Counted from the stretch's first letter, positions 7,571 through 35,624 are shown. The stretch: DNA of 39,793 nucleotides from Alphaproteobacteria bacterium (GCA_017453485.1 JAFTEW010000041.1:1-39793), one strand, 5' to 3'. Notes: generated from the letters alone by a model not told the origin. Numbers and translations are program-made.

Positions 7571-8390
7571 AGTGTTAATTACGGGTAGTCGGGGGCAGTT
7601 GGGAACGGAACTGTCCAAACTACTGCCGGATGCCGTTTTGACGGACGTAGAGGAGTTGGATATTACGGATTTGACGGCCGTTCGACAATTTGTCAAAGAA
7701 AACAATGTTGATACAATCATTAACTGTGCGGCTTATACAGCGGTGGATAAGGCAGAAGATGATATTGAAACGGCCGAAAAAATCAATGTGCTGGGCCCGG
7801 AAAATTTGGCTAAAACAGGTTGTAAAATTGTTCATATTTCAACGGATTACGTTTTTGACGGTTTGGGGCATAAGCCATATACGCCGGCGGACGAAACAAA
7901 GCCGATTTCCGTATATGGCAAGACCAAAAGAGCCGGGGAATTGGCTGTTTTAAATAATGCCACAGAGGCTGTTATTATTCGAACGGCTTGGCTGTATTCA
8001 CCCTATGGCAATAATTTTGTAAAAACAATGCGCCGTTTAGGGGCTGAAAAAGAAAGCATCAATGTGGTTGTCGATCAAATCGGAACGCCGACCTATGCCG
8101 GTGATTTGGCCGAAGCCATTGTGGCGATTTTACCCCAAATTTCCGAAAAAACAAAGGGTATTTATCATTTTACGAATGAAGGTGTTTGCTCTTGGTATGA
8201 TTTTGCGACTGAAATTATGAAGCAATCTGGATTGAAATGTCAGGTCAACCCCATTCCGTCCAGTGCCTATCCGACAAAAGCAAACAGGCCCTTTTACAGC
8301 GTTTTGGATAAGTCTAAAATCAAAGATGTTTTTAATATCAATATCCAACATTGGCAGAAAGGATTGGAAAAATGTCTGAAACAATTTTAA
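7560..8390 (+). CDS. rmlD: dTDP-4-dehydrorhamnose reductase
   Basis: This NAD(P)H-dependent reductase carries out the last step to dTDP-L-rhamnose. The 276-residue protein is a short-chain dehydrogenase-like Rossmann enzyme. The cofactor loop GSRGQLG is at residues 8-14, followed by the conserved CAAYTAVDKAE, ISTDYVFDG, the YGKTKRAGE catalytic Tyr-x3-Lys motif and RTAWLYSPYG. The last third (PIPSSAYPTKANRPFYSVL) is typical of RmlD. It overlaps both its neighbours (11 bases with rmlC, 19 bases with rmlB), which implies translational coupling. The assignment is secure. Confidence 0.97.
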   Translation: MNGKVLITGSRGQLGTELSKLLPDAVLTDVEELDITDLTAVRQFVKENNVDTIINCAAYTAVDKAEDDIETAEKINVLGPENLAKTGCKIVHISTDYVFDGLGHKPYTPADETKPISVYGKTKRAGELAVLNNATEAVIIRTAWLYSPYGNNFVKTMRRLGAEKESINVVVDQIGTPTYAGDLAEAIVAILPQISEKTKGIYHFTNEGVCSWYDFATEIMKQSGLKCQVNPIPSSAYPTKANRPFYSVLDKSKIKDVFNINIQHWQKGLEKCLKQF

Positions 8391-9382: not shown

Positions 9383-9385
9383 TCT

Positions 9386-12220: not shown

Positions 12221-12276
12221 TGATGATTCTTACTCTAATACAACCGTTGACCAGGTTATTGGTCCAAGAGCATTAA
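12220..12276 (+). other. 18-codon ORF overlapping the preceding stop; possible gene remnant
   Basis: The ATG overlaps the stop of the RgpF-HAD gene (TAATG), is preceded by GAGAGG, and opens an 18-codon frame ending in TAA. A different frame across the same bases reads SNTTVDQVIGPRALK into the next gene without a stop. This could be a short coupling ORF or the worn end of a deleted gene. Confidence 0.25.
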
Positions 12277-12288
12277 AGGTAAAAATTG

Positions 12289-14244
12289 ATGAAAAACATT
12301 TTATTTACGGGATATTATTTTGATGGGTATCATGGATCCATGATCCATATTTGCGAGATTGCCGATTATTTAAGCAAAAAAGGTTTCTCTTGTTACTGTG
12401 CATCGGTCAGTATTACGGATGAAATAAAAGAATATGCTAAAACGAAAGGGTTGAATGTTTTTTCTGCCTCTGATGGATCCTTGTTGAGCAGAACATACGA
12501 TTATGTGTGGGCGTATCATTTTCCAATTCTGGGATATTTACTTCATAATGGATTAAAATATCGGAAGATTCATATCGGATCACTTTCGTCTTTTGTTGCA
12601 ATTGAACGCCCCGTGTTATTTTATGATGAGTGTGCATTATTCTCTGTTGTGAGTGAAGAAACAAAAGAAAATTTAGTAAAGGAATATGGCGTAAAACAAG
12701 ATAAAATTTACCTTTTAAAAAATTTATTACCGGATGCTTATCCCTCTTATCATATTGATAACAAGGTAAAACAATCGCTTCCCAAAAAAATTGCCGTCAT
12801 ATCTAATCATCCGCCAAAGGAATTAACGGAATTAAAGGAATTTTTACCCAATACAGAAATCACATATTACGGAAGCAAGTCTGATAATTACCAACCAATA
12901 ACGCCCGAATTAATTTCCAAATATGATGTGATTATAAGCATTGGTAAGACAGTTCAATACGCATTGGGAATGGGAATTCCCGTTTATAACTATGATTATC
13001 TGGGGGGAAGTGGTTATATTACCTTAAAAAATATTGATGAAGAAGAATACTTTAATTTTAGCGGTAGAAGTCATTGCAGAAAAATAACATCAGAAGAAAT
13101 AGCTAATGAAATTTTAAACGGATATGAAAAAGCCGTTCAGGAATCAGAAAAATTAAAAAGATTGGCTGTTGACAGATATCTTTTGTCTAAAAATATTGAT
13201 AATATAATAAAATTATTAGATGGCAAAGAAGATACAAAATTAACAACAGATGTCGATTATAAACTTTTTATGGCTTACTCAACTGCTTTTATAAACGAGG
13301 TTCTTTTCTTACATAATAACATAAAACAGTCGGCGGAGAATTTTAAAAATCTGGAGCATAAAAATACGGAACTTATTAAGGAATATGAAAATTATAAAAG
13401 TTATTTTCACTTACCTAAACCGTTGGTCTTATTTTTATCTTGTTTTATTCCTAAACGAAAAAACAGAAGACATTTTAGAAAAATCCACACAATGCCTTCA
13501 AAATCCTTAAAAATTGCGTGTATAATGTGTGTTAAAAATGAAGAAAGATATCTGCCTACTTTCCTGAAACATGTGGAAAAATATGTAGATTCAATCTTGG
13601 TCGTGGATGATGGCTCAACAGATTCCACTGTTCAGATTTTAGAACAGCATCCCCTTGTCAAAGAGGTATGTAAACTACCTGTCCATACGGTTAAAGAATG
13701 GGATGAAAATAAAAACAGGAGAAAATTGATAGAACTGGCCCAAAAGCACAAAATTGATTGGGTTTTATGCTGTGATCCGGATGAGCGTTTTGAACTAAAC
13801 TTTTTAAAGAATATTAGGAAACTTATTAAAAGTGCCCACAATGAGCGTTTATGCTATCATCTGCACTTCAGAGAACTTTGGGATAGTCCGATGACCTATC
13901 GTTGTGATGGTATTTGGGATAAAAAAGAAAAAGGTATTTTATTTCCTCTGTCCCAACATGAAGATCACTCTTATTCAAGTCACCTTCATATTCCATGGTT
14001 TTCAAAGGATATAACGATACATAAACAAATTGATTATAATATTTATCATTTAAAAATGATAAAAAAAGAAGAAAGAGAAAAACGTAAAAATTTGTATAAA
14101 TTCTTGGATCCTAAAAATGAAATGCAGTCAATCGGATATGACTATCTGACGGATACGGAAAATCTGAAACTGAGGACGATTCCTAAAAATAAAAAATATG
14201 ATGTAAAAAAACTTCCTTCATTTTTAATTGATAATGGTTCTTAA
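12289..14244 (+). CDS. Two-domain glycosyltransferase (GT-B-like plus GT2)
   Basis: This 651-residue protein probably carries two transferase domains. Residues about 1-310 look like a GT-B transferase: NILFTGYYFDGYHGS with a glycine-rich start, then VSEETKENLVKEYGV and late ALGMGIPVYNYD. Residues about 335-375 are a charged helix. A linker holds a basic motif (FIPKRKNRRHFRK) common in surface-glycan transferases. Residues about 404-560 are a GT2 domain with CVKNEERYLP, VVDDGSTDST near 438 and CCDPDERF near 494 as the metal-binding motif. I chose ATG 12289, which has AAAGG 8 bases upstream, over TTG 12286. It is visibly richer in A/T codons than the rml genes, suggesting separate acquisition. 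The sugar donor and acceptor are unknown. Confidence 0.8.
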   Translation: MKNILFTGYYFDGYHGSMIHICEIADYLSKKGFSCYCASVSITDEIKEYAKTKGLNVFSASDGSLLSRTYDYVWAYHFPILGYLLHNGLKYRKIHIGSLSSFVAIERPVLFYDECALFSVVSEETKENLVKEYGVKQDKIYLLKNLLPDAYPSYHIDNKVKQSLPKKIAVISNHPPKELTELKEFLPNTEITYYGSKSDNYQPITPELISKYDVIISIGKTVQYALGMGIPVYNYDYLGGSGYITLKNIDEEEYFNFSGRSHCRKITSEEIANEILNGYEKAVQESEKLKRLAVDRYLLSKNIDNIIKLLDGKEDTKLTTDVDYKLFMAYSTAFINEVLFLHNNIKQSAENFKNLEHKNTELIKEYENYKSYFHLPKPLVLFLSCFIPKRKNRRHFRKIHTMPSKSLKIACIMCVKNEERYLPTFLKHVEKYVDSILVVDDGSTDSTVQILEQHPLVKEVCKLPVHTVKEWDENKNRRKLIELAQKHKIDWVLCCDPDERFELNFLKNIRKLIKSAHNERLCYHLHFRELWDSPMTYRCDGIWDKKEKGILFPLSQHEDHSYSSHLHIPWFSKDITIHKQIDYNIYHLKMIKKEEREKRKNLYKFLDPKNEMQSIGYDYLTDTENLKLRTIPKNKKYDVKKLPSFLIDNGS

Positions 14245-14310: not shown

Positions 14311-14619
14311 TTATCCCTTTGGATACTTTGTTTTAATTTCGGTAATTTTTTGTTGCCATAAATTTGTGCCGTTAACTTTGTCCCAATAAATCATATCCAA
14401 TTGTTCTCCCAGGGCGGGATATTCGGCCAACCGTTTTTCGGTATATGATTTTGCCGGTTCCTGCGGTGCGTATCCTTTGACATACCAATTACCGTCGTAT
14501 GCCTGTTCGACATCCGTTTCAATCATACCTAAGGTGCGGTATAGGCCACTGTCTGTCCCCAAACCAACCTGACAGGCTTTTGTTTTTTCATTGACTATTT
14601 TGGCATACTTAATTGTCAT
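14311..14619 (-). CDS. Small phage-type protein downstream of tail fibre
   Basis: This 102-residue protein resembles the small proteins often found just after phage tail-fibre genes (tail-fibre assembly or XkdW-like). The pattern YDGNWYVKGYAPQEPAK followed by a charged helical C-terminus (KRLAEYPALGEQLDMIYW) is typical of that group. It overlaps the tail-fibre gene by 4 bases (start inside the stop of the previous gene), so the two are made together. A role as chaperone or fibre tip partner is likely by analogy only. It is followed by the terminator at 14277-14305, so this is a self-contained two-gene transcription unit. Confidence 0.6.
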   Translation of the reverse strand: MTIKYAKIVNEKTKACQVGLGTDSGLYRTLGMIETDVEQAYDGNWYVKGYAPQEPAKSYTEKRLAEYPALGEQLDMIYWDKVNGTNLWQQKITEIKTKYPKG

Positions 14620-15641
14620 GCGCTTGCTCCTTTCAATTTATAGTAAACAGTCTCAGATGTTGGGGTCGTTCCAGAGGCTTGAACCCGGAAATAATATCCT
14701 TTTGGCACAAAGGCACCAAGGATTGCCGAATATCCATAGCTATAGGCCACTCTGACATAATTTGTCTCCGAATTATTTAAATTAACCTGGATTTCTTGCG
14801 AAATATTTGCCCCTGATGCTGCGCCGCCCGTCACATAGCAATCATAGGGGGCCCTTACCCAAGTCTTTCCAGCAAAACTTATCCCTGTTGTATAATTTGG
14901 CACCCCAAGGGCTGCTACCGTATTTTTACCCGCAGTCGTCAAATTATCCATACTTGTGTTGGCTTTTGTGGAAAGCGAAGCGCTGACTTCATCTGCCTTT
15001 TGGGCGGCCAGTTCGGCTTTTGCTGTGGCAATGTCGGCTTGGGTTGTTGCCGTTTGGGCCTGAGTGGTAGCAACTTCGGCCCTGTCAGTGGCCGTAGCAG
15101 CAGCGGACTCAGCGGAGTTTTTATAACCCTTAATGGTGTTTTCCAACGCATTAATTTCTATCGTTGAATTTTCAAGGTTTGTTCCTTCGGCATTCCAGAT
15201 AATGGCTTTTCCTGCCGTCGGTGTCGGTAAGGTTAAATTAACACCGGTGCCGGCTGCATATGGTGGCAAGACCATACTGCGATTTAATTGGTCGGCGATT
15301 TGTTGTTGGCAGGCGATTTGATAGTCTAATTCGTCATTCAATGTATCGGCCCGAAGGGCTCCGCCTTCCTGAAAATCTGTTGTGCGTTCAATAGACAGAT
15401 CCCGAACAATGGTAATTACAACGCCCTGATTCGGAGCGGTATTAAAAATAACCGATCCTCCGTCGGAATGACGAACGCCTGTGACAGTATAAGAATTTTG
15501 ATTTTGTTGAATATCATCCAAATAAACTCGAATATCCGATGCGTCAAAGACGGCGAACGGAAATTCATATGTCGCCAACAAGCCATCGGCAACATACTGT
15601 ATTCGTGGTATAACACTACGAACTTTGACATGCTCGTTCAT
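14616..15641 (-). CDS. T7-type phage tail fibre protein
   Basis: This is a 341-residue receptor-binding fibre. Residues about 1-125 match the T7 gp17 N-terminal virion-attachment domain in layout: YEFPFAVFDASDIRVYL, VIFNTAPNQG, ITIVRDLSIERTTDF, then GGALRADTLNDELD. Residues about 150-215 are an Ala/Thr/Gln-rich trimeric coiled-coil shaft with near-repeats (TTQAQTATTQADIATAKA). The last 100 residues form a compact tip with aromatic and Gly-rich strands. The start has an AAGGAGATA ribosome binding site and its own promoter. The gene sits directly downstream of mnmG, far from the capsid genes at 25800-35624, yet its N-terminal type fits that T7-like cluster, so it probably supplies its fibre. 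That link is inference. Confidence 0.8.
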   Translation of the reverse strand: MNEHVKVRSVIPRIQYVADGLLATYEFPFAVFDASDIRVYLDDIQQNQNSYTVTGVRHSDGGSVIFNTAPNQGVVITIVRDLSIERTTDFQEGGALRADTLNDELDYQIACQQQIADQLNRSMVLPPYAAGTGVNLTLPTPTAGKAIIWNAEGTNLENSTIEINALENTIKGYKNSAESAAATATDRAEVATTQAQTATTQADIATAKAELAAQKADEVSASLSTKANTSMDNLTTAGKNTVAALGVPNYTTGISFAGKTWVRAPYDCYVTGGAASGANISQEIQVNLNNSETNYVRVAYSYGYSAILGAFVPKGYYFRVQASGTTPTSETVYYKLKGASA

Positions 15642-25013: not shown

Positions 25014-25649
25014 TTATTGGCTAACCCAAATAACGCGTGCCATCCAGGCGACTTCCGATGCGTTTAAAATAATGTCCGGGTGTTCGTGATTTAATGATTT
25101 GAGTTGAATTTGTCGGGCAGAACGATGTTCCAGTTCTTTGACCATCACTTCTCCGGCTGTTGTTTTAACGACGATCCGATCGCCTTTTCGAATTTCCGAA
25201 TCGGGTGAAATAACCAATTTATCACCGTCCCGATAGGCCGGTTCCATGCTGTTTCCGGATACTTCCAAAGCATAAACATTATCGGCCACAGCCAATGGAA
25301 ATTCGATTCCGTCCCATGTCTCGGTTCCAAGCGGATAGCCATCCGAATCGAAGTATCCTTCACGGCCGGCTTTGGCAAGCCCTAACAGAGGGATAATATG
25401 CGGTTTGGGGCGATAGGGTTCACCGGCACGTTCCATGAATTCAAAAATGGTTGTATTCGTGGCTTGCAGGATTTTATTCATACTTTCTGTGGAAGGCCAC
25501 CGTTTGCGACCATCGGCACCAATGCGCTTGGATTTGTTAAAACTAGTTGGGTCCAGACCGGCTTTGACGGCTAGTCCCGATAAAGAAAGGCCCTTGCTTT
25601 CTGCTAATTTTTCGATTCCATTCCAAATTTCTGTGTATGATAATTGCAT
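25014..25649 (-). CDS. LexA/CI-like HTH regulator with S24 peptidase domain
   Basis: This is a DNA-binding repressor of 211 residues. The HTH region is at about 8-70 (LSLSGLAVKAGLDPTSFNKSKR). The S24 domain at about 85-205 has the self-cleavage set intact: Ala94-Gly95 (LAKAGREG), Ser134 (SGNSMEPAYRDGD) and Lys171 (VMVKELEH), as in LexA and CI. It could therefore respond to RecA-type DNA damage signalling. It lies 10 bases upstream of lnt, a pairing found in many alphaproteobacteria, so it is probably a host gene. However, it is also divergent from the phage-derived cluster across a promoter-containing gap, the arrangement of a phage repressor. Which operators it binds cannot be told from sequence. 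Confidence 0.88.
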   Translation of the reverse strand: MQLSYTEIWNGIEKLAESKGLSLSGLAVKAGLDPTSFNKSKRIGADGRKRWPSTESMNKILQATNTTIFEFMERAGEPYRPKPHIIPLLGLAKAGREGYFDSDGYPLGTETWDGIEFPLAVADNVYALEVSGNSMEPAYRDGDKLVISPDSEIRKGDRIVVKTTAGEVMVKELEHRSARQIQLKSLNHEHPDIILNASEVAWMARVIWVSQ

Positions 25650-25679
25650 ATTCTCTCCATTATTTAAACAGATATATAT

Positions 25680-25708
25680 TATGTATCATATCCTTTTTAT
25701 CCTGTCAA
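25680..25708 (-). promoter_or_regulatory. Promoter of the S24 regulator and lnt
   Basis: On the minus strand TTGACA (25703-25708), 17 bases, TACATA (25680-25685). The spacer holds two GGATA copies, a possible operator. Confidence 0.65.
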
Positions 25709-25732
25709 TAGGTTTTTTTTCTTATTTTTAAC

Positions 25733-25776
25733 TTGACATCTTTTATTTTTTGGTTTAGTTCTTGTTTTGTTCTTAT
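25733..25776 (+). promoter_or_regulatory. Weak or activator-dependent promoter of the phage-derived cluster, with direct repeats
   Basis: TTGACA (25733-25738) is a perfect -35, but no good -10 lies at 16-18 bases (TAGTTC at 17). Two direct GTTCTT copies follow, 6 bases apart (near 25758-25773), and are candidate binding sites. The start of the first cluster gene is at 25800. Confidence 0.4.
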
Positions 25777-25799
25777 TTTTATCAATGAAAGGATTGCAA

Positions 25800-26183
25800 A
25801 TGAGGAATAAATACCTAAAACAAACAGACGGCCGCGAAACCGTGCCGTTTGAAACAACGGAAAAAGCCTGGTTTTGGTATTGTTTATGCCGACAACTGGG
25901 ATTTGAAAAAGGACATCGACAGAGTGGTCAAATGGCGCGTCCTTGTGAAACATCGGATATTTTTATCTCGCTAAAACGGCTGTTATGTCAAGGCGTTTTG
26001 CGGCGGGCACACTTACTTGTCCTGCAAATATATGGGGATAGACAAGAACCGCCTCACATCAATTTCGGGGCAAGTGAACGTGTTTGTCGTTTGTGGCAGG
26101 ATGCGATAGCGGCTTTGGATGTATTGCTGCGGGAAAAGGGGATTGTGGCCGGATTGTTTTTGATCGGGGGATATGTTCGATGA
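25800..26183 (+). CDS. Hypothetical phage-associated protein, possible regulator
   Basis: I do not recognise a named family in this 127-residue protein. It begins MRNKYLKQTDGRETVPFE and is rich in Trp, Cys and Arg (EKAWFWYCLCRQLGFEKG, DIFISLKRLLCQGVLRRAHLL, RVCRLWQDAIAALDVLL). The helical, basic character without membrane segments would suit a small nucleic-acid-binding or transcription factor. I chose ATG 25800, with AAAGGA 6 bases upstream. It is the first gene after the divergent S24 regulator and shares 4 bases with the next gene. Position at the head of a late-gene cluster fits an activator or antiterminator, but nothing in the sequence proves it. Confidence 0.6.
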   Translation: MRNKYLKQTDGRETVPFETTEKAWFWYCLCRQLGFEKGHRQSGQMARPCETSDIFISLKRLLCQGVLRRAHLLVLQIYGDRQEPPHINFGASERVCRLWQDAIAALDVLLREKGIVAGLFLIGGYVR

Positions 26184-26575
26184 AAAATATATTGGCACAA
26201 GGATATCGCTATCCGTTTGCTTACGTTGCTTTTGGCGGATCAAAGACCCAATGGTGGATGCGTTTTTTGAAAAAAGGATTTTATCATTGCGCTTTGGTTT
26301 TGGGAAATGGACGGGATTGGATATTGATTGATCCGTTGGCTGGATTTACGGATATGATTATATTAAAGAATGTTGCGGTTGTAAAAGTCTTGAAAGCAAA
26401 AGGATATCGTCTGATGCGAACGACACCGCATCTGCCGTCAAACACCGGGATTCAGTTGCGGCCGATGACCTGTGTAGAAACGGTTAAGCGTTTTTTGGGG
26501 ATACGACGTCCCGAAATTTGGACGCCGTATCAATTATTTAAATTTTTATTCCTAAAAAAGGAAAATAATCCTTGA
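26180..26575 (+). CDS. Small protein resembling permuted papain-fold (NlpC/P60-LRAT-like) enzymes
   Basis: This is a 131-residue soluble protein. I chose ATG 26180, which overlaps the previous stop (ATGA). A His in FYHCALVLGNG (His36) is followed by strands (DWILIDPLAGF) and later a Cys in MTCVETVKRFLGI (Cys98) at a helix start. That His-before-Cys order, with HxxxV-like and TCVE-like surroundings, is typical of permuted papain-fold families such as YiiX and LRAT-like proteins, some of which are phage-encoded. If correct it would be a cysteine hydrolase or acyltransferase acting on cell wall or lipids. The similarity is by eye only. A canonical promoter for the capsid genes overlaps its stop codon. 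Confidence 0.5.
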   Translation: MKNILAQGYRYPFAYVAFGGSKTQWWMRFLKKGFYHCALVLGNGRDWILIDPLAGFTDMIILKNVAVVKVLKAKGYRLMRTTPHLPSNTGIQLRPMTCVETVKRFLGIRRPEIWTPYQLFKFLFLKKENNP

Positions 26576-26600
26576 CATTTTTAAAAAAATATGATATAGT
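26572..26600 (+). promoter_or_regulatory. Strong sigma-70 promoter of the virion genes
   Basis: TTGACA (26572-26577), 17 bases, TATAGT (26595-26600). It overlaps the end of the preceding gene, and transcription would start near 26607. The leader contains a terminator-like hairpin before the portal gene at 26707. Confidence 0.85.
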
Positions 26601-26633
26601 CCTTTTCAGTTAGCAAGCAGAAGTCTATCCCTC

Positions 26634-26668
26634 GCAGGTTTTCGATTTGTTCGAAAGCCTGCTTTTTG
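26634..26668 (+). terminator. Intrinsic terminator / possible attenuator in the portal leader
   Basis: A 12-bp stem with one G-T pair joins GCAGGTTTTCGA (from 26634) and TCGAAAGCCTGC (to 26662), followed by TTTTT. AAGCAG at 26615-26620 is complementary to CTGCTT (26659-26664), an alternative pairing that would break the terminator stem. It lies between the promoter and the first virion gene. Confidence 0.7.
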
Positions 26669-26706
26669 TTTGCAGCTGTTATTATTGATTTTATAAAGGA
26701 GAGGTT

Positions 26707-28176
26707 ATGAAAGACATTCAATACCTGTATCGCCGATTTCAACGGGCACGTTCCGTTCGCAGCGGTTGGGAAGCGGTTTGGCGTGATTGCTATGAATATG
26801 CATTGCCACAACGGGGCAGTTCATTCCATCCCGGCGAATCGCCGATTGTGCCGCTTTTTGACGGAACGGCGCCGGATTCGGTGGATCAGTTGGCGGCTTT
26901 AATTCTGTCAGAAATGACGCCCCCGTGGCTTCGTTGGTTCCAACTGACAGCCGGGACGGATTTATCCGAAGCGGAACGGAATCGAATCGCCGTTGATTTG
27001 GAAAAAATTTCCGATATTTTGCAAACACATTTTGATCGGTCAAATTTTGCCATGGAGATTCACCAATGTTATTTTGACTTAATCACGGCCGGAACGGCTT
27101 GTCTTTTGTTTGAAGAAGCTCCGGTCGGTTTGGCAACAGCTTTCCGATTTACGGCTATTCCGCTTTCTGAAATTTATGTTCTGGAAGGTCCGTCCGGTCG
27201 GCTTGATACCACATTCCGGTTGTGCCGGATGGATTTGGAAACATTTCGGAACCGTTTTCCGACGGTTGCTCTGCCGGAAAAGGTATACCAAGAAAATAGG
27301 GAAATTTATTTTAATGTAATAGAAGCCATTATTCCTAATCCTCGCGGGGGATATGATTACACGGCTTTTTTACAACCGGATAGCCAGTATGATTCCCTAA
27401 ACGGGATGAATCCTGTTTTAAAAGAAGGATATTACAGGAGTTCGCCGTTTATTACTTTTCGCTGGTTAAAGGCTCCGGGCGAGGTTTATGGACGATCGCC
27501 GGTAATGAAGACATTGCCGGATATTAAAACAGCCAATAAAGTGGTTGAGTTAATCCTGAAAAATGCGTCCATTTCCGTGACGGGTATTTGGCTGGCCGAG
27601 GACGATGGCGTCCTGAATCCCGGCAATATCAGCCTCGTCCCCGGAGCCATCATTCCCAAAGCCGTCGGGTCAAAAGGATTGACTCCGTTGGAGGCGCCTG
27701 GCAAATTTGACGTATCACAATTGATGATTGATGATTTGCGTAAACGTATCCGGCATGCTTTGTTGGTTGATCGATTTGGCGAGGTTGATACCCCAAAAAT
27801 GACAGCCACCGAAGTTTTGCAACGTTCGGATGAAATGATGCGGATTTTAGGGGCAACTTACGGTCGATTACAAACGGAATTATTGACGCCGCTGATTGAA
27901 CGAGCCGTTTATATCTTACGCAAACGCGGGGAGATTCCCGAGATTTATCTTGACGGGCGGTTATTGAAAGTTGCCTATAAATCTACCCGTGCCGGTCAAC
28001 AGGCTCAAATTGACGCCAACAATGCTTTGTTATGGTTGTCATCTGTCAGTAAATTAGGTGATAGCGCCTTACAATCGGTTGATATAGCGGCTTTCGTCAA
28101 ATGGTTGGGACAACAATTAAATGTACCGGCCGATATTTTAGGAGGACATTCCGTGACGAATGGTGCTGCCGTATGA
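26707..28176 (+). CDS. T7-type portal (head-tail connector) protein
   Basis: This forms the dodecameric ring through which DNA enters the capsid and to which the tail attaches. The 489-residue protein has the T7 gp8-type layout: RSGWEAVWRDCYEYALP near the start, then LFDGTAPDSVDQLAALILSE, and later FRWLKAPGEVYGRSPVMKTLPDIK. A long C-terminal helical region follows (KMTATEVLQRSDEMMRILGATYGRLQTELL). Length and motifs match the podoviral head-tail connector family. A GGAGAGG ribosome binding site precedes the ATG. The stop overlaps the next start (ATGA). The gene appears complete with no inactivating change. Confidence 0.92.
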   Translation: MKDIQYLYRRFQRARSVRSGWEAVWRDCYEYALPQRGSSFHPGESPIVPLFDGTAPDSVDQLAALILSEMTPPWLRWFQLTAGTDLSEAERNRIAVDLEKISDILQTHFDRSNFAMEIHQCYFDLITAGTACLLFEEAPVGLATAFRFTAIPLSEIYVLEGPSGRLDTTFRLCRMDLETFRNRFPTVALPEKVYQENREIYFNVIEAIIPNPRGGYDYTAFLQPDSQYDSLNGMNPVLKEGYYRSSPFITFRWLKAPGEVYGRSPVMKTLPDIKTANKVVELILKNASISVTGIWLAEDDGVLNPGNISLVPGAIIPKAVGSKGLTPLEAPGKFDVSQLMIDDLRKRIRHALLVDRFGEVDTPKMTATEVLQRSDEMMRILGATYGRLQTELLTPLIERAVYILRKRGEIPEIYLDGRLLKVAYKSTRAGQQAQIDANNALLWLSSVSKLGDSALQSVDIAAFVKWLGQQLNVPADILGGHSVTNGAAV

Positions 28177-28373
28177 ACCCGGCCATTCACTTTGCCAGAC
28201 TTTTCCGTCATCCGGAGGGAGCCGAAGTGCTTGCCTACCTGAAACGTATTACGCAAGAACGCATTTTATCCCCGATGGTCAGTGACGGAGAATTGCGCTA
28301 TTTAGAGGGACAGAGAGCTTTGGTAGCCCTTATTCTGTCCCTGATTCATCAAGGTCAACAAAAGGAGAAATAA
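28173..28373 (+). CDS. Small Bbp19-like phage protein
   Basis: This 66-residue protein overlaps the portal stop by 4 bases. It resembles the Bbp19 group of small podoviral proteins found between portal and scaffold genes: FRHPEGAEVLAYLKRITQERIL and a helical GELRYLEGQRALVALIL. The protein is all-helical and soluble. Its role in the virion is unknown in the family. I chose the start because it places the conserved N-terminus directly at the coupling overlap. It is 1 base from the scaffold gene. Confidence 0.6.
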   Translation: MNPAIHFARLFRHPEGAEVLAYLKRITQERILSPMVSDGELRYLEGQRALVALILSLIHQGQQKEK

Positions 28374-28374
28374 T

Positions 28375-29061
28375 ATGACCAAAAAAAAAGAAAATATAAT
28401 ATCGGGAACAGAACAGACAAAGCCCCCGGTTGAATTGCCGGATAAATTTGAAACAGATAACGACAATTTAAATACGACGGTTTTGTTAAAATCATTTTTA
28501 GATCCGAAAAAGGATGTAAGGTTGAAATTTAATCAGTTTTCGGTCGGAACCCGTCCGGAAAAGCCGGAAGATTACCGTATCCGGATAAATAATGCTTTTA
28601 TGGTCAATGATCCGATCGTGAATAAACGCCTGTTTGATTTGGGACTGACAAACGAACAGGTCCAAGGCATTTATGATCTGGCGGCCGATACAATTATACC
28701 GATGATTGAGACATTGTGTTCTGCTTTTCGGGCTGATAAAGATTTGTCGGAATTGGAACAAACTTTCGGCGGTGCGGACCAGTTTAATCAGGTTGCCCGA
28801 CAAATTTCTGATTGGGGTGAAAAGAATTTGGAACGATCCGTTTTTGAGGCTTTATCCGGCAGTAAAGATGGTATTATGACTATGTATAAAATGATGACCA
28901 ATGCCCGGGAAGAATCGGTTTTACCCCGGCCGGAAGAGAGTGTTTCGCCGGATACGGAAGACAGTTTAAAACGTTTAATGCAGGATCCCCGTTATTGGAA
29001 AAAGCAGGATCCTGAATTGGTTAAACGTGTGACCGAAGGCTTTAAACGTCTTTATGGTTAA
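28375..29061 (+). CDS. Capsid assembly scaffolding protein
   Basis: This is the probable internal scaffold for capsid assembly. It has 228 residues, is acidic and helical, and lacks Cys-rich or membrane parts. The gene lies between portal and major capsid, the T7 gp9 position. The N-terminal third is disordered and charged (KENIISGTEQTKPP). The C-terminus carries the recurring scaffold ending MQDPRYWKKQDPELVKRVTEGFKRLYG in part (DPRYWKKQDPELVKR), a pattern I know from podoviral scaffolds. The ribosome binding site is AAGGAGAAATA. It is followed by a 115-base non-coding gap with three hairpins before the capsid gene. Confidence 0.75.
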   Translation: MTKKKENIISGTEQTKPPVELPDKFETDNDNLNTTVLLKSFLDPKKDVRLKFNQFSVGTRPEKPEDYRIRINNAFMVNDPIVNKRLFDLGLTNEQVQGIYDLAADTIIPMIETLCSAFRADKDLSELEQTFGGADQFNQVARQISDWGEKNLERSVFEALSGSKDGIMTMYKMMTNAREESVLPRPEESVSPDTEDSLKRLMQDPRYWKKQDPELVKRVTEGFKRLYG

Positions 29062-29176
29062 ACCTTTTGACGGATAATCTTCGGCCCGTCAAATAAATGG
29101 GGAATACATCCCCGGAATTGTCGGTATTTGTCTGTGCAAATGCCGATTTTTTTATAACATGAAAGGAAAATATATA
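29062..29176 (+). promoter_or_regulatory. Structured gap with three successive hairpins before the capsid gene
   Basis: Hairpin 1: TTTGACGG (29066-29073) with CCGTCAAA (29086-29093). Hairpin 2: GGGGA (29099-29103) with TCCCC (29109-29113). Hairpin 3: TCGGTATTTG (29121-29130) with CAAATGCCGA (29137-29146), then seven T. Such a set could process or stabilise the capsid mRNA or set its level relative to the scaffold. Confidence 0.7.
29121..29153 (+). terminator. Intrinsic terminator before the capsid gene
   Basis: A 10-bp stem with one G-T pair and a 6-base loop ends at 29146, followed by TTTTTTT. It would end most transcripts of the portal-scaffold unit. No strong promoter is visible between it and the capsid start, so read-through or antitermination is required for capsid expression. 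Confidence 0.75.
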
Positions 29177-30016
29177 ATGACAGAAACAGTATCAACAGCG
29201 ATTGATGCTTCTTTTATTAAACACTTTGAAGCCGATGTGCATACTGCCTATCAGCAACAAGGTTCTAAATTAAAAAATACGGTTCGGTCCAAAAATAATG
29301 TTCAGGGTGCTTCTACAACATTTCAGGTTATCGGCGCAATGACGGCCGGCACAAAGACTCGGAATGCCCAAATTGCTTCATCGGCCGTGACACATGCCCC
29401 GGTTGAATGTGCTTTGACAGATTATTATGCCGGTGAATGGGTCGATCAATTAGATGAATTAAAGGTCGGTCACGACGAACGTAAAGTTTTGGCATTGGCC
29501 GGGGCATATGCCTTGGGTCGCAAGACGGATGAATTGATTATTACCGCTTTATCCGGTGCGACACAAACGGTCGGAACAGCCTCGGAAGGGTTAACAAAAG
29601 ACCGTATTTTAAAGGCCTTTACAATCCTGAATAACAATGATGTGCCTGATGATGGCGAACGATATGCTTTGGTTAGTCCGGCCCAGTGGAATCAATTATT
29701 ATCCATTGAAGAATTTTCATCGGCCAATTATGTCGGGGACGCTTACCCGATGTTGAGCGGTTCCGAAAGCCGGAAATGGATGGGAATCGTATGGATTATG
29801 CATACGGGACTTCCCAAAACAAGTTCCAGTCACACCTGCTTTATTTACCATAAATCTGCCGTCGGTCATGCCAGCGGTCAAGATATTAAGACGGATATTA
29901 CCTGGCACGGTGATTATGCGGCCCACTTCGTCAATAATATGATGAGTCAGGGGGCCTGCCTGATTGATCCGAAGGGAGTTATTAAAATGGAGTGTGCCGA
30001 TACCGTCAGTGCATAA
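29177..30016 (+). CDS. Major capsid protein
   Basis: This is the probable HK97-fold shell protein, 279 residues. The motifs match the phage capsid family used by some podoviruses: IDASFIKHFEADVHTAYQQQG, TFQVIGAMTAGTK, DYYAGEWVDQLDELK, RKVLALAGAYALGRKTDEL, and later YALVSPAQWNQLL and SGQDIKTDITWHGDYAAHFV. I chose ATG 29177, which has AAAGGAAAA upstream; the in-frame ATG at 29159 lies within that leader and would add six residues. It is followed by a strong terminator, so it may be a separate abundant transcript. The gene seems intact. There is no sign of a frameshift-derived longer form. Confidence 0.9.
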   Translation: MTETVSTAIDASFIKHFEADVHTAYQQQGSKLKNTVRSKNNVQGASTTFQVIGAMTAGTKTRNAQIASSAVTHAPVECALTDYYAGEWVDQLDELKVGHDERKVLALAGAYALGRKTDELIITALSGATQTVGTASEGLTKDRILKAFTILNNNDVPDDGERYALVSPAQWNQLLSIEEFSSANYVGDAYPMLSGSESRKWMGIVWIMHTGLPKTSSSHTCFIYHKSAVGHASGQDIKTDITWHGDYAAHFVNNMMSQGACLIDPKGVIKMECADTVSA

Positions 30017-30026
30017 TAAAACCGGA

Positions 30027-30060
30027 AAGGAGCCGCTATCGGCTCCTTTTTATTTTTTTT
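30027..30060 (+). terminator. Rho-independent terminator after the capsid gene
   Basis: AAGGAGCCG (30027-30035), loop CTAT, CGGCTCCTT (30040-30048), then a T-rich run to 30060. The next gene begins 18 bases later, and no promoter was recognised between them. Confidence 0.9.
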
Positions 30061-30077
30061 AGGGGAGTATTTTTAAT

Positions 30078-30647
30078 ATGAGTTTAACGTCTGTTGATAT
30101 TTGTTCCCATGCGTTGGTTAAATTAGGGGCCGGCAGTATTTCTTCATTTAATGAAGATACGACCGAGGCCCATGTTGCTAAACAATTATACGATATAACG
30201 GTTGAGGCTTTACTGGCTTCTTATCCGTGGCGTTTTGCTTTAAAGCAAGTTCATTTACCACGATTATTGAATCAGCCGGATGCGGATTATCGGTATGCTT
30301 ACGCCCTTCCAAAGGATTGTGTGCGGGTGCTGTCGGCCGGTGCCCATAAGCGTGGACGTGGCCTGAATTACCGGATTGCCAAACAACAATTACAAACCGA
30401 TAGTGATTCTGTGATATTGACCTATCTTGCCAAACCGGATGAAGCCGATTTTCCGGCTTTTTTCACAAAAGCCCTTATTTCCAAATTGGCGGCGGAATTT
30501 TGTCTGCCGTTGACGGAAAGTACAAGCCGAACGGACTATTTGTTGAAATTGGCGGCTGAAGATATTCAAAATGCCCGCCTGATTGACAGTCAACAGGCTG
30601 TCCCGCAGGCTTTTCAGGATTTTTCACTGATCGGAGTGCGCCAATGA
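30078..30647 (+). CDS. Tail tubular protein A-like (head-tail adaptor)
   Basis: This resembles T7 gp11, which forms the adaptor ring between portal and tail nozzle. The 189-residue protein shows the family start SLTSVDICSHALVKLGAGSI, then a helical AKQLYDITVEALLASYPWRFAL and PDADYRYAYALPKDCVRVL. An AGGGGAG ribosome binding site precedes the ATG. The gene overlaps the next one by 4 bases, and the pair corresponds to the gp11-gp12 order. It lies downstream of the capsid terminator, so its expression depends on read-through or an unseen promoter. Confidence 0.85.
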   Translation: MSLTSVDICSHALVKLGAGSISSFNEDTTEAHVAKQLYDITVEALLASYPWRFALKQVHLPRLLNQPDADYRYAYALPKDCVRVLSAGAHKRGRGLNYRIAKQQLQTDSDSVILTYLAKPDEADFPAFFTKALISKLAAEFCLPLTESTSRTDYLLKLAAEDIQNARLIDSQQAVPQAFQDFSLIGVRQ

Positions 30648-32557
30648 CAAATCTGTTTACGGCAAAAACAAATTTTACAGCCGGTGCTTTATCGGCGAAT
30701 TTGTTGGGACGGGTTGATTTAAAAGCCTATGATAATGGTGCCATGATTTTAGAAAATGTCTTTATTGAACCAACGGGCGGTGTTTATCGCCGTCCCGGCC
30801 TAAAATATGTGGCAACATTATCCGGTAACGGTCGGTTGATAATCTATGAAAAAAAAGCGAACGAAGCCTACTTGATTATCTTACAGGACGAATGTCTGCA
30901 TATTTATTTAGACGGTGTGTATCAAACGACATTGGCGGCCCCGTGGCATGAAACGCAAATAACATCTGTTCGGTGGTGCCAAAGTTCGGATGCTCTGTAT
31001 TTGGTTCATCCGGATGTTCCGCCGCAAAAATTGATGTTGAAGGACGGGATCTGGCAACTTTCGGCTTTTACTTTTTTGGCGGATAACGGATGTATTTTGC
31101 AGCCCTATCATAAATTTTGTGATGATGCTGTGACGATTGCTTCATCCGGCATGGAAGGTACGGTGACATTGACGGCTTCAAGCCCTGTCTTTCAAAATAA
31201 ACATGTCGGCCGTATTTTTAAAGTAGCCGAGGGGTATGTATCTATTACCGGTATTTCCGGTGAAATGTCTGCTACCGGTCGCGTTTTAAAAAAATTGGAT
31301 GAAGACGGTGAAGGGGCGTTACCCGCTACACGCAGTTGGGGAGAACCCGCTTTTGATTCGGAAACCGGTTATCCGGCGACGGTGGCCTTTTATCAATCGC
31401 GATTGGTCTTTGGCGGCAGTCGGTCTTTGCCGAATTATCTGTGGTTCAGTCAAAGCGGTGATTTAACGAATTTTGAATTAGGACAGGGCTATGATGCCGA
31501 TGCGATTGAATTTAACATTTTGTCGGATCAGTCAAACGCTATTTGTGCCTTGTTTGCCGGTCGCCATTTACAGGTTTTTACGACTAATGCCGAATGGATG
31601 GTATCCGGGGATCCTTTAACCCCGACAAGTATTCAATTAAAACGGCAAACACAGGTCGGCTCACCGGATAGTCGCTATGTTCCACCGATCAGTATTGACG
31701 GAGCAACTATTTTTTCGGCGGCAAACGGTCGGGAAATTCGGGAGTTTCTGTTTGCGGATATTGAACAAGCTTATCAGGCAACGGATTTATCCTTGATGTC
31801 GTCTCATTTAATCAATCAACCGCAAGATCAGGCCTATGATAAACAAAATCGTCAGGCCTATGTCATTATGGCGGATGGACGGTTATGCACACTTGTCAGT
31901 TTTCGGGCCGAAGATATTCAAAGTTGGTCTGAACAAAAAACGGACGGTGCTTTTATATCTGTTGCCGTCGGTGGGGGACAAACTTACTTTATCGTTAAAC
32001 GCGGTGAAAATTGGTATTTGGAACAACTGGATGATACGTTGCATACCGATTGTGGGTTTCACCTGTCCGAGGTCACCCCGTCACAGACATTTGGCGGGTT
32101 ATCCGTTTTAGAAGGAAAAACAGTCAAAGTTGTAGCCGATGATATTATTGTTCCGGATTGTATTGTGCAAAACGGAATGATTACCCTGGAACATCCGGCC
32201 CGTGTGATAGAGGTCGGATTGCCCTTTATTCATCGGGTTATCCCATTACCGCCGTCCGTCGGTGCCGGAAACGGGACAGCGCCGATTTCATCGGCTCGCC
32301 TGGTCAAGGGTGTTTTTCGTGTTGTTGATACTGGTTCTTTGGAAATTGATACGGGTACCGGTCTGCATCAGGAATTAACACGCCCGTTGGCATCCTATCA
32401 TTTAGATACGGTGCCCGGCCCGCAAACGGCGGATATTGTTGTCCGATCGCTCGGTTGGATACGTCGTCCGACGCAACCGCTCTGGTTGATTGAGGGGAGT
32501 CAACCGAAATCATTTAAATTGGTCAGTGTGACCAGTGATATTCAAATAGGAGGATAA
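30644..32557 (+). CDS. Tail tubular protein B-like (tail nozzle)
   Basis: This is the probable tail nozzle protein, 637 residues, rich in beta strands. It shows the stabilising-tail-protein pattern near the start: NFTAGALSANLLGRVDLKAYDNG, then ENVFIEPTGGVYRRPGLKYV. Repeated strand-turn units follow (IYEKKANEAYLIILQ, CLHIYLDGVYQTTLA). Later FYQSRLVFGGSRSLPNYLWFSQSG and ALFAGRHLQVFTTNAEWM recur in podoviral nozzle proteins. The 4-base overlap with the gp11-like gene shows coupling. The reading frame is complete. Confidence 0.85.
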   Translation: MTNLFTAKTNFTAGALSANLLGRVDLKAYDNGAMILENVFIEPTGGVYRRPGLKYVATLSGNGRLIIYEKKANEAYLIILQDECLHIYLDGVYQTTLAAPWHETQITSVRWCQSSDALYLVHPDVPPQKLMLKDGIWQLSAFTFLADNGCILQPYHKFCDDAVTIASSGMEGTVTLTASSPVFQNKHVGRIFKVAEGYVSITGISGEMSATGRVLKKLDEDGEGALPATRSWGEPAFDSETGYPATVAFYQSRLVFGGSRSLPNYLWFSQSGDLTNFELGQGYDADAIEFNILSDQSNAICALFAGRHLQVFTTNAEWMVSGDPLTPTSIQLKRQTQVGSPDSRYVPPISIDGATIFSAANGREIREFLFADIEQAYQATDLSLMSSHLINQPQDQAYDKQNRQAYVIMADGRLCTLVSFRAEDIQSWSEQKTDGAFISVAVGGGQTYFIVKRGENWYLEQLDDTLHTDCGFHLSEVTPSQTFGGLSVLEGKTVKVVADDIIVPDCIVQNGMITLEHPARVIEVGLPFIHRVIPLPPSVGAGNGTAPISSARLVKGVFRVVDTGSLEIDTGTGLHQELTRPLASYHLDTVPGPQTADIVVRSLGWIRRPTQPLWLIEGSQPKSFKLVSVTSDIQIGG

Positions 32558-32560
32558 TTT

Positions 32561-33037
32561 ATGGAAATCACACCCATTGTATCGACATTAACCACGGCCG
32601 CATCGGCCTATTTTATGAAAGAAAGTGTGGATACGCAAAAAAAAGCCATGAAGGCCGAACGGGCCGCCAATCAACGACAGTATGATTTAGAGGTGGCTCA
32701 AAAAAAATTAACGTTGGCCGAGGAACAACGTAAAAACCGAAATTTGTTGGCGCAACAGCAATCGGGCTATCGGGCCAAACTCGGTGCCGCCGGGCTCAGC
32801 GCTCAATCCGGTAGTGGTCGGGCTGTGCTTGATTCAATGAAACAAGAGTATGATACCGAGGATAAATACTTGATCAATCAGGCTAACATTTCTTTGGAAG
32901 CTCTGTTGAACGGCATTAACACAAAACAAAATCGGAATTTATTATCCATGTCATCTTTAAATAACCGACAGATGTCTAATACGTTAAACGCCATTAATAA
33001 TTTTACCTCAAATGCGGGGCGATCTGTCCTGAAATAG
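32561..33037 (+). CDS. Putative internal virion protein (T7 gp14-like)
   Basis: This 158-residue protein is helical and Ala/Gln-rich. A short apolar N-terminus (IVSTLTTAASAYFM) is followed by a long basic coiled coil (QKKAMKAERAANQRQYDLEV, LAEEQRKNRNLLAQQQ) and a low-complexity GAAGLSAQSGSGRA stretch. It sits after the tail nozzle gene, in the position of T7 gp14, which forms part of the DNA-ejection channel. The same Gly/Ser motif followed by DSMKQEYDTEDKYL is familiar from phage internal proteins. No large gp15- or gp16-type genes follow, so the ejection complex, if any, is minimal. Confidence 0.65.
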   Translation: MEITPIVSTLTTAASAYFMKESVDTQKKAMKAERAANQRQYDLEVAQKKLTLAEEQRKNRNLLAQQQSGYRAKLGAAGLSAQSGSGRAVLDSMKQEYDTEDKYLINQANISLEALLNGINTKQNRNLLSMSSLNNRQMSNTLNAINNFTSNAGRSVLK

Positions 33038-33046
33038 GGGGCGGTT

Positions 33047-33328
33047 ATGACGGATGAAAAGGATTTAACCGATTGTTGTCGGGACGGCTTAAATCGGGCT
33101 TTGGCATCCTATCGCCGTTTTCAAACGTCTGAGGCCCCTTTGGATGCCAAGGGATTTACCGCGTATCATAACGCCTGTAAGGCCGCATTACTGCATATTG
33201 CCGTTTTGTTGAAATTGGTCCCGCCGGATTCTCAAACGAATCAAAATCGGGCAGGGGATTGGCTTGCGGCGGCCCAAGCTGCTTTGCGATCGGAAACGGA
33301 GGGAAAAGATGATGAGCTCTTTGATTGA
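33047..33328 (+). CDS. Hypothetical protein, position of a small terminase subunit
   Basis: This 93-residue helical protein is not similar to anything I can name. It has a Cys-containing start (DLTDCCRDGLNRALASYRRF) and an Ala/Leu-rich centre (CKAALLHIAVLLKLV), and ends with an acidic tail. It overlaps the large terminase gene by 20 bases. T7-like phages place the small terminase just before the large one, so a DNA-recognition role is plausible from context alone. If it is a small terminase, it would set packaging specificity, which matters for judging whether host DNA is packaged. Confidence 0.45.
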   Translation: MTDEKDLTDCCRDGLNRALASYRRFQTSEAPLDAKGFTAYHNACKAALLHIAVLLKLVPPDSQTNQNRAGDWLAAAQAALRSETEGKDDELFD

Positions 33329-34718
33329 GTTTATTTGGATTTGGGACAAAGTGCAAGGATTTAACTTACCCCGCCATCACCGAATGATGGCCCGATTTTT
33401 GACGGGTCTTTATCGGGACCGGGAAAGCGGATTATTGATGGCTTTTCGAAATTCGGGAAAGTCAACGATTGTCGGATTGTTTTGTGCCTGGCTGTTGTTG
33501 AATAATCCGGACCTCCGTATTCTGATTCTGTCGGCCGATCAAGGGTTGGCCAGAAAAATGGTTCATCACATAAAAAAAATTATTGAACGCCATCCCTTGA
33601 CCCGAACACTGGTGCCGGAGGATAAAGATGAGTGGGCCGCCGGTCGATTTACGGTTCGTCGCTCGGGCGGGTTTCGGGATCCGTCCGTTTTGGCTTGCGG
33701 ACTTATGACGAATATAACGGGATGCCGGGCTGATATAATTATCTGTGATGATGTAGAAGTTCCCAAAACCTGTGATACGGTCGGTAAAAGGGAGATTCTG
33801 CGCCGAAAACTGGATGAATTAAACTATATTTTGACTCCCGGTGGGGTGGTGCTTTATATCGGAACACCGCATACGGCAGATACCATTTATGATACGGGGC
33901 CAGCCGGTTTTTTAAGTGCTTGGCGGCAAATGAAATTACCGTTATTAAAGTCGGATGGCACGTCGGCATGGCCGGAACGATTCGGGCTGGAACAAATTGA
34001 TGCCTTGAAAAAGAAGACCGGCCCACGTCAATTTGCTGCTCAGATGATGTTGGAACCGATTTCTGTTTTTGAAAGCCGGTTGGATAGCAGTCGCCTGAAA
34101 TTTTACCAAGGTGATTTGGATTATCGGGAGGCAAACGGTCGCGGTATTTTGTCTTTAAACGGTTATCGGTTGTGCGGCTGCGCCTGTTGGTGGGACCCGG
34201 CTTTCGGCTCTCCGACGGGTGATAAAAGCGTGGTTGCCTGTGTTTTTTTTGATGAACGGGGTATAGCCTATATCCATCGGATTTTATACTTAACCGTGCC
34301 GCCGGATTGTGAGGCAACAGCCTATCAATGTGGGGCTGTGCAACGCCTGATAGCCGATTGTCATATTCCCGCCATCCATTTGGAAACAAACGGAATCGGT
34401 AAGTTTTTGCCGGCACTGCTGCGGCAAACGTTGGCACGGTCCGGGACACCTTGTGCCGTGATAGAAGAAACATCCCGTCGCAATAAGGTTGAACGTATTT
34501 TATCGGCATTGGATGCCCCTTTGATGAACGGCAATTTATGGGTTCATGAATCGGTTCGGTCAACGCCGTTTATACAAGAAATGCAGGATTTTAAACCCGG
34601 TGGTCCCTGTCATGATGACGGTTTGGATGCCGTTGCGGGATGCTTGTCAATTGAACCAGTCCGACTGCAAAAACGGATGGGAACGATTATTAAAAATACA
34701 TTAGAATGGAGATTTTAA
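33309..34718 (+). CDS. Phage terminase large subunit
   Basis: This is the motor and nuclease that packages DNA into the capsid. The 469-residue protein has a complete ATPase: Walker A FRNSGKST (residues 45-52), Walker B ADIIICDDVE (about 141-150) and a coupling-type YIGTPHT near 183. Its RNase H-like nuclease is intact too: Asp296 in WWDPAFGSPTGDKS, Glu359 in HLETNGIG, and Asp436/Asp437 with Asp440 in CHDDGLDAVAG. I chose the ATG at 33309 (tandem ATG) with GGAGGGAAAA upstream; the frame is open from 33264. Intact ATPase and nuclease residues imply that packaging is still selected. It belongs with the T7-like gp19 type. Confidence 0.93.
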   Translation: MMSSLIEFIWIWDKVQGFNLPRHHRMMARFLTGLYRDRESGLLMAFRNSGKSTIVGLFCAWLLLNNPDLRILILSADQGLARKMVHHIKKIIERHPLTRTLVPEDKDEWAAGRFTVRRSGGFRDPSVLACGLMTNITGCRADIIICDDVEVPKTCDTVGKREILRRKLDELNYILTPGGVVLYIGTPHTADTIYDTGPAGFLSAWRQMKLPLLKSDGTSAWPERFGLEQIDALKKKTGPRQFAAQMMLEPISVFESRLDSSRLKFYQGDLDYREANGRGILSLNGYRLCGCACWWDPAFGSPTGDKSVVACVFFDERGIAYIHRILYLTVPPDCEATAYQCGAVQRLIADCHIPAIHLETNGIGKFLPALLRQTLARSGTPCAVIEETSRRNKVERILSALDAPLMNGNLWVHESVRSTPFIQEMQDFKPGGPCHDDGLDAVAGCLSIEPVRLQKRMGTIIKNTLEWRF

Positions 34719-34719
34719 T

Positions 34720-35115
34720 ATGGATAAAGAAACGGAAATTTTGGCTAAGACCATTTATGGAGAAGCCCGGGGCGAGGGGCTATCCGGTATGGAAGCCATC
34801 GCTAATGTTATTATGAACAGAGTTCATAAAAAAAGTTGGTGGGGCAAGACGATATCGGAAGTTTGCTTAAAACCGAAACAATTTTCCTGTTGGAATGAAA
34901 ATGATCCGAATGCTAAATTGATAAAAGGTGATTTAACGAAAGATTCTGTTTTTCGTGTTTGTTGCCGTATTGCTAAACGAGCCATAAAGGGTCTCTTACC
35001 GGATATTACAAAAGGTTCCACCCATTACCATGCGTTATCGGTCAATCCGGCCTGGGCCAATCGATTGGTGCCGAATGCACAAATCGGGAATCATTTATTT
35101 TATACCTGTAATTAA
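34720..35115 (+). CDS. SleB-type cell wall hydrolase (endolysin)
   Basis: This 131-residue enzyme belongs to the hydrolase_2/SleB family, which cleaves peptidoglycan glycan strands. The signature TIYGEARGEG at residues 11-20 carries the catalytic glutamate. GMEAIANVIMNRV, PKQFSCWNEND and a C-terminal GSTHYHA motif follow, all typical. It has no signal peptide and thus needs a holin or another route to reach the wall. It lies 1 base after the terminase stop, in the lysis part of the cluster. The sequence appears functional. Confidence 0.92.
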   Translation: MDKETEILAKTIYGEARGEGLSGMEAIANVIMNRVHKKSWWGKTISEVCLKPKQFSCWNENDPNAKLIKGDLTKDSVFRVCCRIAKRAIKGLLPDITKGSTHYHALSVNPAWANRLVPNAQIGNHLFYTCN

Positions 35116-35127
35116 AGGAGACAGAAA

Positions 35128-35433
35128 ATGCCCACATTAACCATGGAAATCGGAAAATTGATGGCTTTGGTGGATACCCTTCAAAAGCAATTACAATCAA
35201 TACAAAAGGAAATCTGCCAAACCAAAAATCAAATCACGGATGTGCATACGGAATTGTTGAATTTTATGGCGACGGTTCAAAAAAAATCCGTGTGTCAGGC
35301 CCTTCACGATAAATTGGCCCAAAACTATGTGGCAAAATCCGAAATTGCCCCGTTAAAGGCCTTTGTCGCGATGATTACCCTGACGACAGTGACGGCTATT
35401 GGAGCCGCTTTTTTTAACTTAATTTTAAAATGA
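35128..35433 (+). CDS. Small protein with C-terminal membrane segment, possible lysis accessory
   Basis: This is a 101-residue protein. The first two thirds form a charged coiled coil (LVDTLQKQLQSIQKEICQTKNQ). A hydrophobic segment ends the protein (VAMITLTTVTAIGAAFFNLIL, about 79-100). Such a coil-plus-anchor layout appears in phage holin or spanin-related proteins and in virion-associated anchors. It follows the lysin gene after 12 bases with an AAAGGAGA ribosome binding site. The role is inferred from architecture and position only. Confidence 0.6.
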   Translation: MPTLTMEIGKLMALVDTLQKQLQSIQKEICQTKNQITDVHTELLNFMATVQKKSVCQALHDKLAQNYVAKSEIAPLKAFVAMITLTTVTAIGAAFFNLILK

Positions 35434-35444
35434 AAGGAAATGAA

Positions 35445-35624
35445 ATGTTTGCTTTTTTAATCACTTATTGGGATGAAATGCTTATTGCCATATCCGGCAT
35501 CGTATCCGGTGCCAGTGCTTTGGCGGCTCTAACGCCGACCGGTAAAGATGATACTTTTTGGGCCAATATTAAAAAAGGGTTAGATGTTCTAGCCTTAAAT
35601 GTCGGTCATGCTAAGGCTGCCTAA
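35445..35624 (+). CDS. Small membrane protein, possible holin
   Basis: This 59-residue protein has one hydrophobic stretch near the N-terminus (MLIAISGIVSGASALAALT, about 11-29) and a polar C-terminal half (KDDTFWANIKKGLDVLALNV). The ATG at 35445 has AAAGGAAA upstream and fits better than the ATG overlapping the previous stop at 35430. A holin role is plausible by size and place next to the lysin. The stop codon overlaps that of the convergent Bax/DUF192 gene, so the phage-derived block ends without any intergenic sequence. Confidence 0.6.
   Translation: MFAFLITYWDEMLIAISGIVSGASALAALTPTGKDDTFWANIKKGLDVLALNVGHAKAA

Follow-up and report, generated by a model that had tools for sequence, protein, structure and literature searches.

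BaGTA of Bartonella is a domesticated phage-derived particle of an alphaproteobacterium, restricted to one genus and of a phage ancestry different from that of the element described here. The better distributed gene transfer agents (GTAs) RcGTA and CcGTA (Rhodogtaviriformidae) have, like this element, been inherited vertically over a wide range of Alphaproteobacteria, with loss in some lineages and with parts residing at several loci, but their particle is of siphovirus type. They also share with it a LexA-like repressor, the operator of which is in their case GGAA-N4-TTCC: Caulobacter RogA, a protein of 213 aa with a helix-turn-helix (HTH) and a LexA/CI-like domain without catalytic residues, represses the activators of the siphovirus-type CcGTA, and the promoter that it binds has two GGAA-N4-TTCC repeats (PMC9632790). 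Rhodospirillales, Kiloniellales, Rickettsiales and other orders lacked RcGTA-like clusters in a previous survey (PMC6821227). Orders without such clusters have been regarded as GTA-free.

The sole podovirus-like GTA found in our literature searches is FpGTA of the Firmicute Faecalibacterium prausnitzii, published in January 2026 (PMC12946183), and the same searches found none of podovirus type in Alphaproteobacteria. Compared by description, FpGTA resembles the present element in that TerS, TerL, portal, scaffold and capsid, all like those of short-tailed phages, belong to an operon of about 10 kb, that its fibre is in a second locus and that it is widespread in a genus. It differs in its host and in that its fibre locus also carries lysis genes, which here end the main operon. 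FpGTA is moreover backed by a particle, a proteome and DNA of 8.4-8.9 kb (PMC12946183), the present element by sequence comparison. The original prediction that a podovirus-type GTA would be new has to be qualified, as FpGTA is a precedent for the type as such. Among cultured phages the best matches are to Pelagibacter phage Hodr EXVC031P (capsid 42%, portal 33%). Hodr and other pelagiphages have homologous portal, Bbp19, scaffold, capsid, tail A/B and lysin genes; Hodr differs in being a replicating phage of 34 kb, and the repressor (R), the first two operon genes (g0 and g1), TerS and TerL of the element were unmatched in the 28 kb examined.

The window analyzed here is a stretch of 39,793 nucleotides from an alphaproteobacterium (GCA_017453485.1, JAFTEW010000041.1:1-39793). 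We consider it likely, on the comparative sequence evidence set out below, that it carries a domesticated, vertically inherited GTA-like element of podovirus type, whose lineage is separate from those of RcGTA and BaGTA and whose most likely use would be gene transfer. Its particle genes lie in one direction (plus strand) at 25,800-35,624, and ORF reading and profile matches found all frames intact. Behind g0 and g1 come the portal or head-tail connector, similar to T7 gp8 (26,707-28,176; PF12236, E 7.5e-124), a small Bbp19-like protein (28,173-28,373; PF25181, 8.9e-14), a gp9-like scaffold (28,375-29,061; PF05396, 1.3e-7) and the major capsid protein (29,159-30,016; PF19821, 5.9e-71; phrog_3437, 4.9e-79). 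The tail is represented by tubular protein A, gp11-like (30,078-30,647; phrog_394, 2.7e-49), and tubular protein B or nozzle, gp12-like (30,644-32,557; phrog_376, 3.9e-130), followed by a gp14-like internal virion protein with weak matches and a conserved position (32,561-33,037; phrog_418, 0.0047; PF24072, 0.0046). A small-terminase-like protein (TerS) occupies the gp18 position directly before TerL (33,047-33,328; phrog_31793, an unannotated family, 1.2e-13), and the gp19-like large terminase TerL (33,309-34,718; NF033889 'termin_lrg_T7', 9.4e-113) has intact Walker A/B and nuclease motifs that are conserved across relatives. The cluster ends with a SleB-like cell-wall hydrolase, presumably the endolysin (34,720-35,115; PF07486, 1e-23; phrog_938, 6.4e-26), a small coiled-coil/membrane protein that may be a lysis accessory (35,128-35,433; position conserved at 29 loci) and a small membrane protein that is holin-like by position, which is likewise conserved (35,430-35,624; phrog_9685, 5.6e-12).

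The order in the window is thus that of T7 gp8-9-10-11-12-14-18-19, and the profile matches bear out the original prediction of a compact particle gene set in gp8 to gp19 order, in which all frames are open and the terminase keeps its ATPase and nuclease residues. The element as a whole shares the order gp8-9-10-11-12-14-(17)-18-19 with T7 and other Autographiviridae; it differs from them in its capsid, which is of another family (PF19821), and in what it lacks. In the window neither the single-subunit RNA polymerase and replication genes of a T7-like phage nor a large ejection protein of gp15/gp16 type was seen, as had been predicted.

Two conserved genes (25,800-26,575) start the operon. The first, g0 (25,800-26,183), encodes a helical protein conserved across families, a candidate activator or antiterminator of the operon, and the second, g1 (26,180-26,575), encodes a conserved alpha/beta protein in which an alignment shows invariant His-Cys and Cys-Val-Glu. 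Searches of Pfam, PHROGs, NCBIfam, PDB sequences and folds gave no significant match that would indicate a function for either. The predicted structures have a pLDDT of 87 (AF2, helical g0) and 93 (g1). The top fold match of g0, not significant, is a sigma -35-binding domain; set against the sigma-like HTH of GafZ, the CcGTA antiterminator (PMC11150451), it may serve as a lead to an activator or antiterminator role for g0.

The neighbors of the cluster are host genes, namely Lnt to its left, DUF192 and MurJ to its right and also a Sel1-repeat gene, and no direct repeat of at least 14 bp joins the flanks, in agreement with what had been predicted. A prophage with attachment sites was considered and rejected on this ground. 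Integrase and replication genes were recognized neither among the window ORFs around the cluster nor among the flanking ORFs scanned at related loci. In the congener G002 the same site is filled, in the order Lnt-repressor-cluster-DUF192-MurJ, rather than being empty. When profiles built from the window genes were run over about 110 loci, the order R-0-1-portal-Bbp19-scaffold-capsid-tailA-tailB-gp14-(fibre)-TerS-TerL-lysin recurred in about 80 genomes of many families, and the comparison of synteny across related genomes that had been suggested thus found the order conserved. At three loci (L083 in G058, L204 in G353, L206 in G413), capsids of 48-52% identity stand in another arrangement of genes; these may be genuine prophages, near to the phage from which the element arose. 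In family f70, with genomes of 0.9 Mb, the element is kept in a rearranged order (L170, L171, L173), and a second TerL-like match lies about 3 kb from the first.

Immediately upstream of the operon and divergent from it lies R (25,014-25,649, minus strand), a repressor with HTH and S24 (LexA/CI-like) domains (PF00717, 6.2e-25; phrog_4, 4.1e-29), which belongs to the conserved unit by its synteny with the cluster. The predicted extent of 25,800-35,624 was right for the particle cluster and too narrow for the unit, which also takes in R; TerS has to be added to the genes originally listed, and a detached fibre was found as well. At about 210 aa, R has the make-up of an HTH and S24-domain protein as in RogA-type control. 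It lies adjacent to its operon and mostly keeps the cleavage residues that RogA is without (PMC9632790). In the window R both the AG (Ala-Gly) cleavage site and the Ser/Lys dyad are intact; these residues are kept in most genomes and lost in several separate lineages, through at least 5 changes by parsimony over 35 genomes. The interval between R and g0 (25,650-25,799) is a putative divergent promoter/operator region, in which GGAA-N4-TTCC is enriched family-wide. This motif, the published RogA operator, occurs at 7/8 or better in 34 of the 69 R-g0/g1 intergenic regions, whereas 200 shuffles gave 5.7 on average and never more than 13, and spacings other than N4 occur in 2-16 of the same regions. 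The window's own copy is degenerate (TAGGTTTTTTTTCTTA).

In podovirus-type cluster genomes of several families, a direct search found R tail-to-tail with a gene that we take, from its sequence, to be a class-I lysyl-tRNA synthetase (lysK). R is also near lysK in three genomes that have the RcGTA marker PF13547 in place of the cluster (G045, G046, G051), the R proteins of which nest within the R tree. Since R occurs at lysK in both types of genome and its tree is nested, R looks ancestral and common to both settings. We propose that R may be RogA.

A survey of the class covered 387 alphaproteobacterial genomes with a completeness of at least 90%. The capsid of this lineage was present at 47-100% identity in 63 of them, from about 31 families and essentially in one copy each, and was separated by a clear gap from the next capsid matches among the 387, which have 34% identity or less and look like ordinary prophages. 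No capsid above 29% identity was found outside Alphaproteobacteria in a phylum-wide sample. The hosts range from bacteria with genomes of 1 Mb to soil genera such as Skermanella, and the named carriers include Rhodospirillales-type genera; Skermanella aerolata, Caenispirillum bisanense and Marivibrio halodurans are carriers in culture. The RcGTA marker PF13547 (GTA_TIM domain of the tail protein) is absent from G000 and is never found alongside this element: it occurs in 40 of the 387 genomes, with an overlap of 0 where 6.5 would be expected (hypergeometric P 0.0005, a value that shared ancestry inflates). Within the family of the window, 28 of 43 genomes have one capsid copy and the same 28 have one TerL locus, while 14 are without the cluster; ten of these 14 make up one genus, which also lacks R. 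The remaining genome (G020) is masked and its status unreadable; its reading as an empty site with R retained was dropped, as its locus (L218) is masked N from 10,001 on, beyond R.

In 56 genomes a tree of seven element genes was compared with one host marker, rpoB. Patristic distances were correlated with a Mantel r of 0.757, a value reached in 0 of 2,000 permutations (maximum 0.35), and 74% of random quartets, or 88% of the well-resolved ones, agreed between the two trees, where chance would give one third. Host families with at least two members were monophyletic in the element tree in 13 of 14 cases; the disagreements are a split f16 and a different placement of f70/f147 and f80. The agreement, strong and not perfect, argues for long-term vertical inheritance with the host.

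In several genomes the cluster is dispersed. Portal and capsid are 1.6 Mb apart in G219 and 1.25 Mb apart in G371, in both cases on a single contig covering essentially all of the genome; the distance is 244 kb in G307, 153 kb in G200, 134 kb in G239 and 58 kb in G424, and in G408 and G143 the two genes are on different contigs. Where split genomes were read at both places, R-0-1-portal-scaffold formed one unit and capsid-tail-terminase the other, a pattern that leaves out G219 and G424, in which only the portal was recognized, and G307 with respect to g0, which was not recognized there. A phage genome in such distant pieces could not excise or package itself, and such dispersal recalls the known GTAs rather than a prophage. 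G012 has lost the cluster through one internal deletion, by which a truncated R was joined to the two membrane genes at the other end; the deletion also shows where the unit begins and stops. The dispersal of genes in several genomes and the agreement of the element tree with that of the host lend substance to the predicted domestication of a podovirus-type element. These data have to be weighed against a temperate podovirus (or its remnants) that is strictly restricted to its hosts, has co-diverged with Alphaproteobacteria and is still mobile as a phage, perhaps through host replication and recombination. All parts of the element are indeed phage-derived, true phages such as Hodr are related to it and a CI-like cleavable repressor stands beside the operon. 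Nevertheless, an integrase/replication module was recognized at no locus, the parts lie up to 1.6 Mb apart and without attachment repeats, there is one copy per genome and the deep trees are congruent, so that we regard such a phage as unlikely.

A T7 gp17-type tail fibre with an N-terminal adaptor domain (14,616-15,641, minus strand; PF03906, 1.8e-5; phrog_1640, 2.1e-22) was located in the window by a search with the fibre of a deeper relative. It is the one fibre match in this genome, and a single homolog was present in 20 of the 21 genomes searched. Downstream is a small protein, probably a fibre accessory (14,311-14,619, minus strand; phrog_9114, 2.4e-13), whose gene adjoins the fibre also in the relatives L303/L076, L304, L308, L310 and L311. 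In deeper clades the same fibre is found between gp14 and TerS, within the cluster, and it is therefore detached in the family of the window. An AT-rich block for rhamnan/LPS synthesis (RgpF, RmlD, glycosyltransferases) at 5,234-14,244, with GC down to 0.32, directly adjoins the detached fibre, and fibre and surface-sugar genes may co-vary. The presence of a fibre and a lysin would also suit a domesticated particle that serves to kill rivals, for altruistic lysis or for the release of matrix or DNA, without productive gene transfer, and it has been argued that GTAs may be of advantage through repair or the release of DNA (PMC9632790). We hold such a particle to be quite unlikely: conservation extends to capsid, scaffold, portal and terminase, the last with intact ATPase and nuclease motifs, and a device for killing or lysis needs none of them.

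Pairwise dN/dS over all genes was 0.06-0.23 in every pair with an estimable dS, which indicates purifying selection on the particle genes; this was one of the checks proposed with the original prediction. The core genes are of full length in nearly all family members, the exceptions being TerL in G027 and contig-edge cases. In G093 (G093:C2:1262476-1280769; L296, L297) the portal breaks off at about residue 300 and continues some 17 kb further on, so that the GTA-like locus, conserved in other respects, carries an insertion. Defective prophage remnants kept by chance would likewise be without replication genes and would be expected to include broken members, such as those with the TerL of G027, the portal of G093 and the deletion of G012. 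The selection data make this reading very unlikely: frames are intact, dN/dS is low over class-level divergence and the genes are kept in genomes of 0.9-1.5 Mb, from which DNA of no use should disappear. A phage satellite that packages its own DNA, alone or through a helper, is highly improbable in spite of the compactness of the unit (about 10 kb) and of the repressor that it carries, since no integrase or primase was seen, a full particle is something that satellites usually borrow and do not encode, and dispersed loci are not packageable as one genome.

Relatives of the cluster are found in IMG/VR (L085-L164; 80 of 169 matches kept), where they consist, including those of 9-18 kb, of this gene string and little else, with no other phage module recognized. 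Public virus collections thus list the cluster as a provirus, and these entries appear to be wrongly filed under viruses or proviruses. One scaffold from human faeces in Mexico, labelled 'Bacteriophage sp.' (L165, MT838907.1; 5,084 bp), is a piece of the cluster from portal to tail B, with a capsid of 60% identity. It would fit a study of DNase-treated virus-like particles from Mexico (PMC8361208), in which accession MT838907 is not named; possibly the scaffold stems from such particles, which would be an indirect sign of packaging and is offered as a lead.

The reading as a domesticated element draws on the full single-copy gene set, the selection on it, the tree that follows the host, the lack of recognized integrase and replication genes, the separate fibre and the adjacent S24 repressor. 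The following model would fit. Long ago, a podovirus would have become domesticated in Alphaproteobacteria, which have since passed on the particle genes with the chromosome. R would bind its operator and silence the g0 promoter; because the cleavage residues of the window R are intact, it would in this genome probably be relieved by RecA-stimulated self-cleavage after DNA damage. Relief of R would allow g0 to turn on the operon and heads to assemble, which the terminase would fill with host DNA in non-specific pieces. The producer cell would be lysed by SleB together with the small membrane proteins, and the particles, guided by the fibre, would bring DNA to kin, whose ComEC and DprA could aid its uptake and recombination. 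Both are encoded in this genome and in nearly all relatives, with or without the cluster, and are therefore only permissive for the model.

A tentative and rather doubtful extension is that the podovirus-type element is the older gene transfer system of Alphaproteobacteria, fixed beside an ancestral S24 repressor at lysK, and that lineages later gaining RcGTA lost the element, kept the repressor and re-used it as RogA for an unrelated newcomer. If so, the two GTA types would be mutually exclusive alternatives under one regulator, and the repeated loss of self-cleavage in R would show that gene transfer was several times disconnected from the SOS response.

If the domesticated-element reading is true, many IMG/VR proviruses would have to be re-classified as host machinery, and carrier genera in culture (Skermanella, Caenispirillum, Marivibrio) would be open to direct tests. 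Many lineages free of RcGTA would possess a second, independently domesticated system of podovirus origin; a major GTA lineage would be added to the class, in which domestication for DNA transfer would have been repeated.
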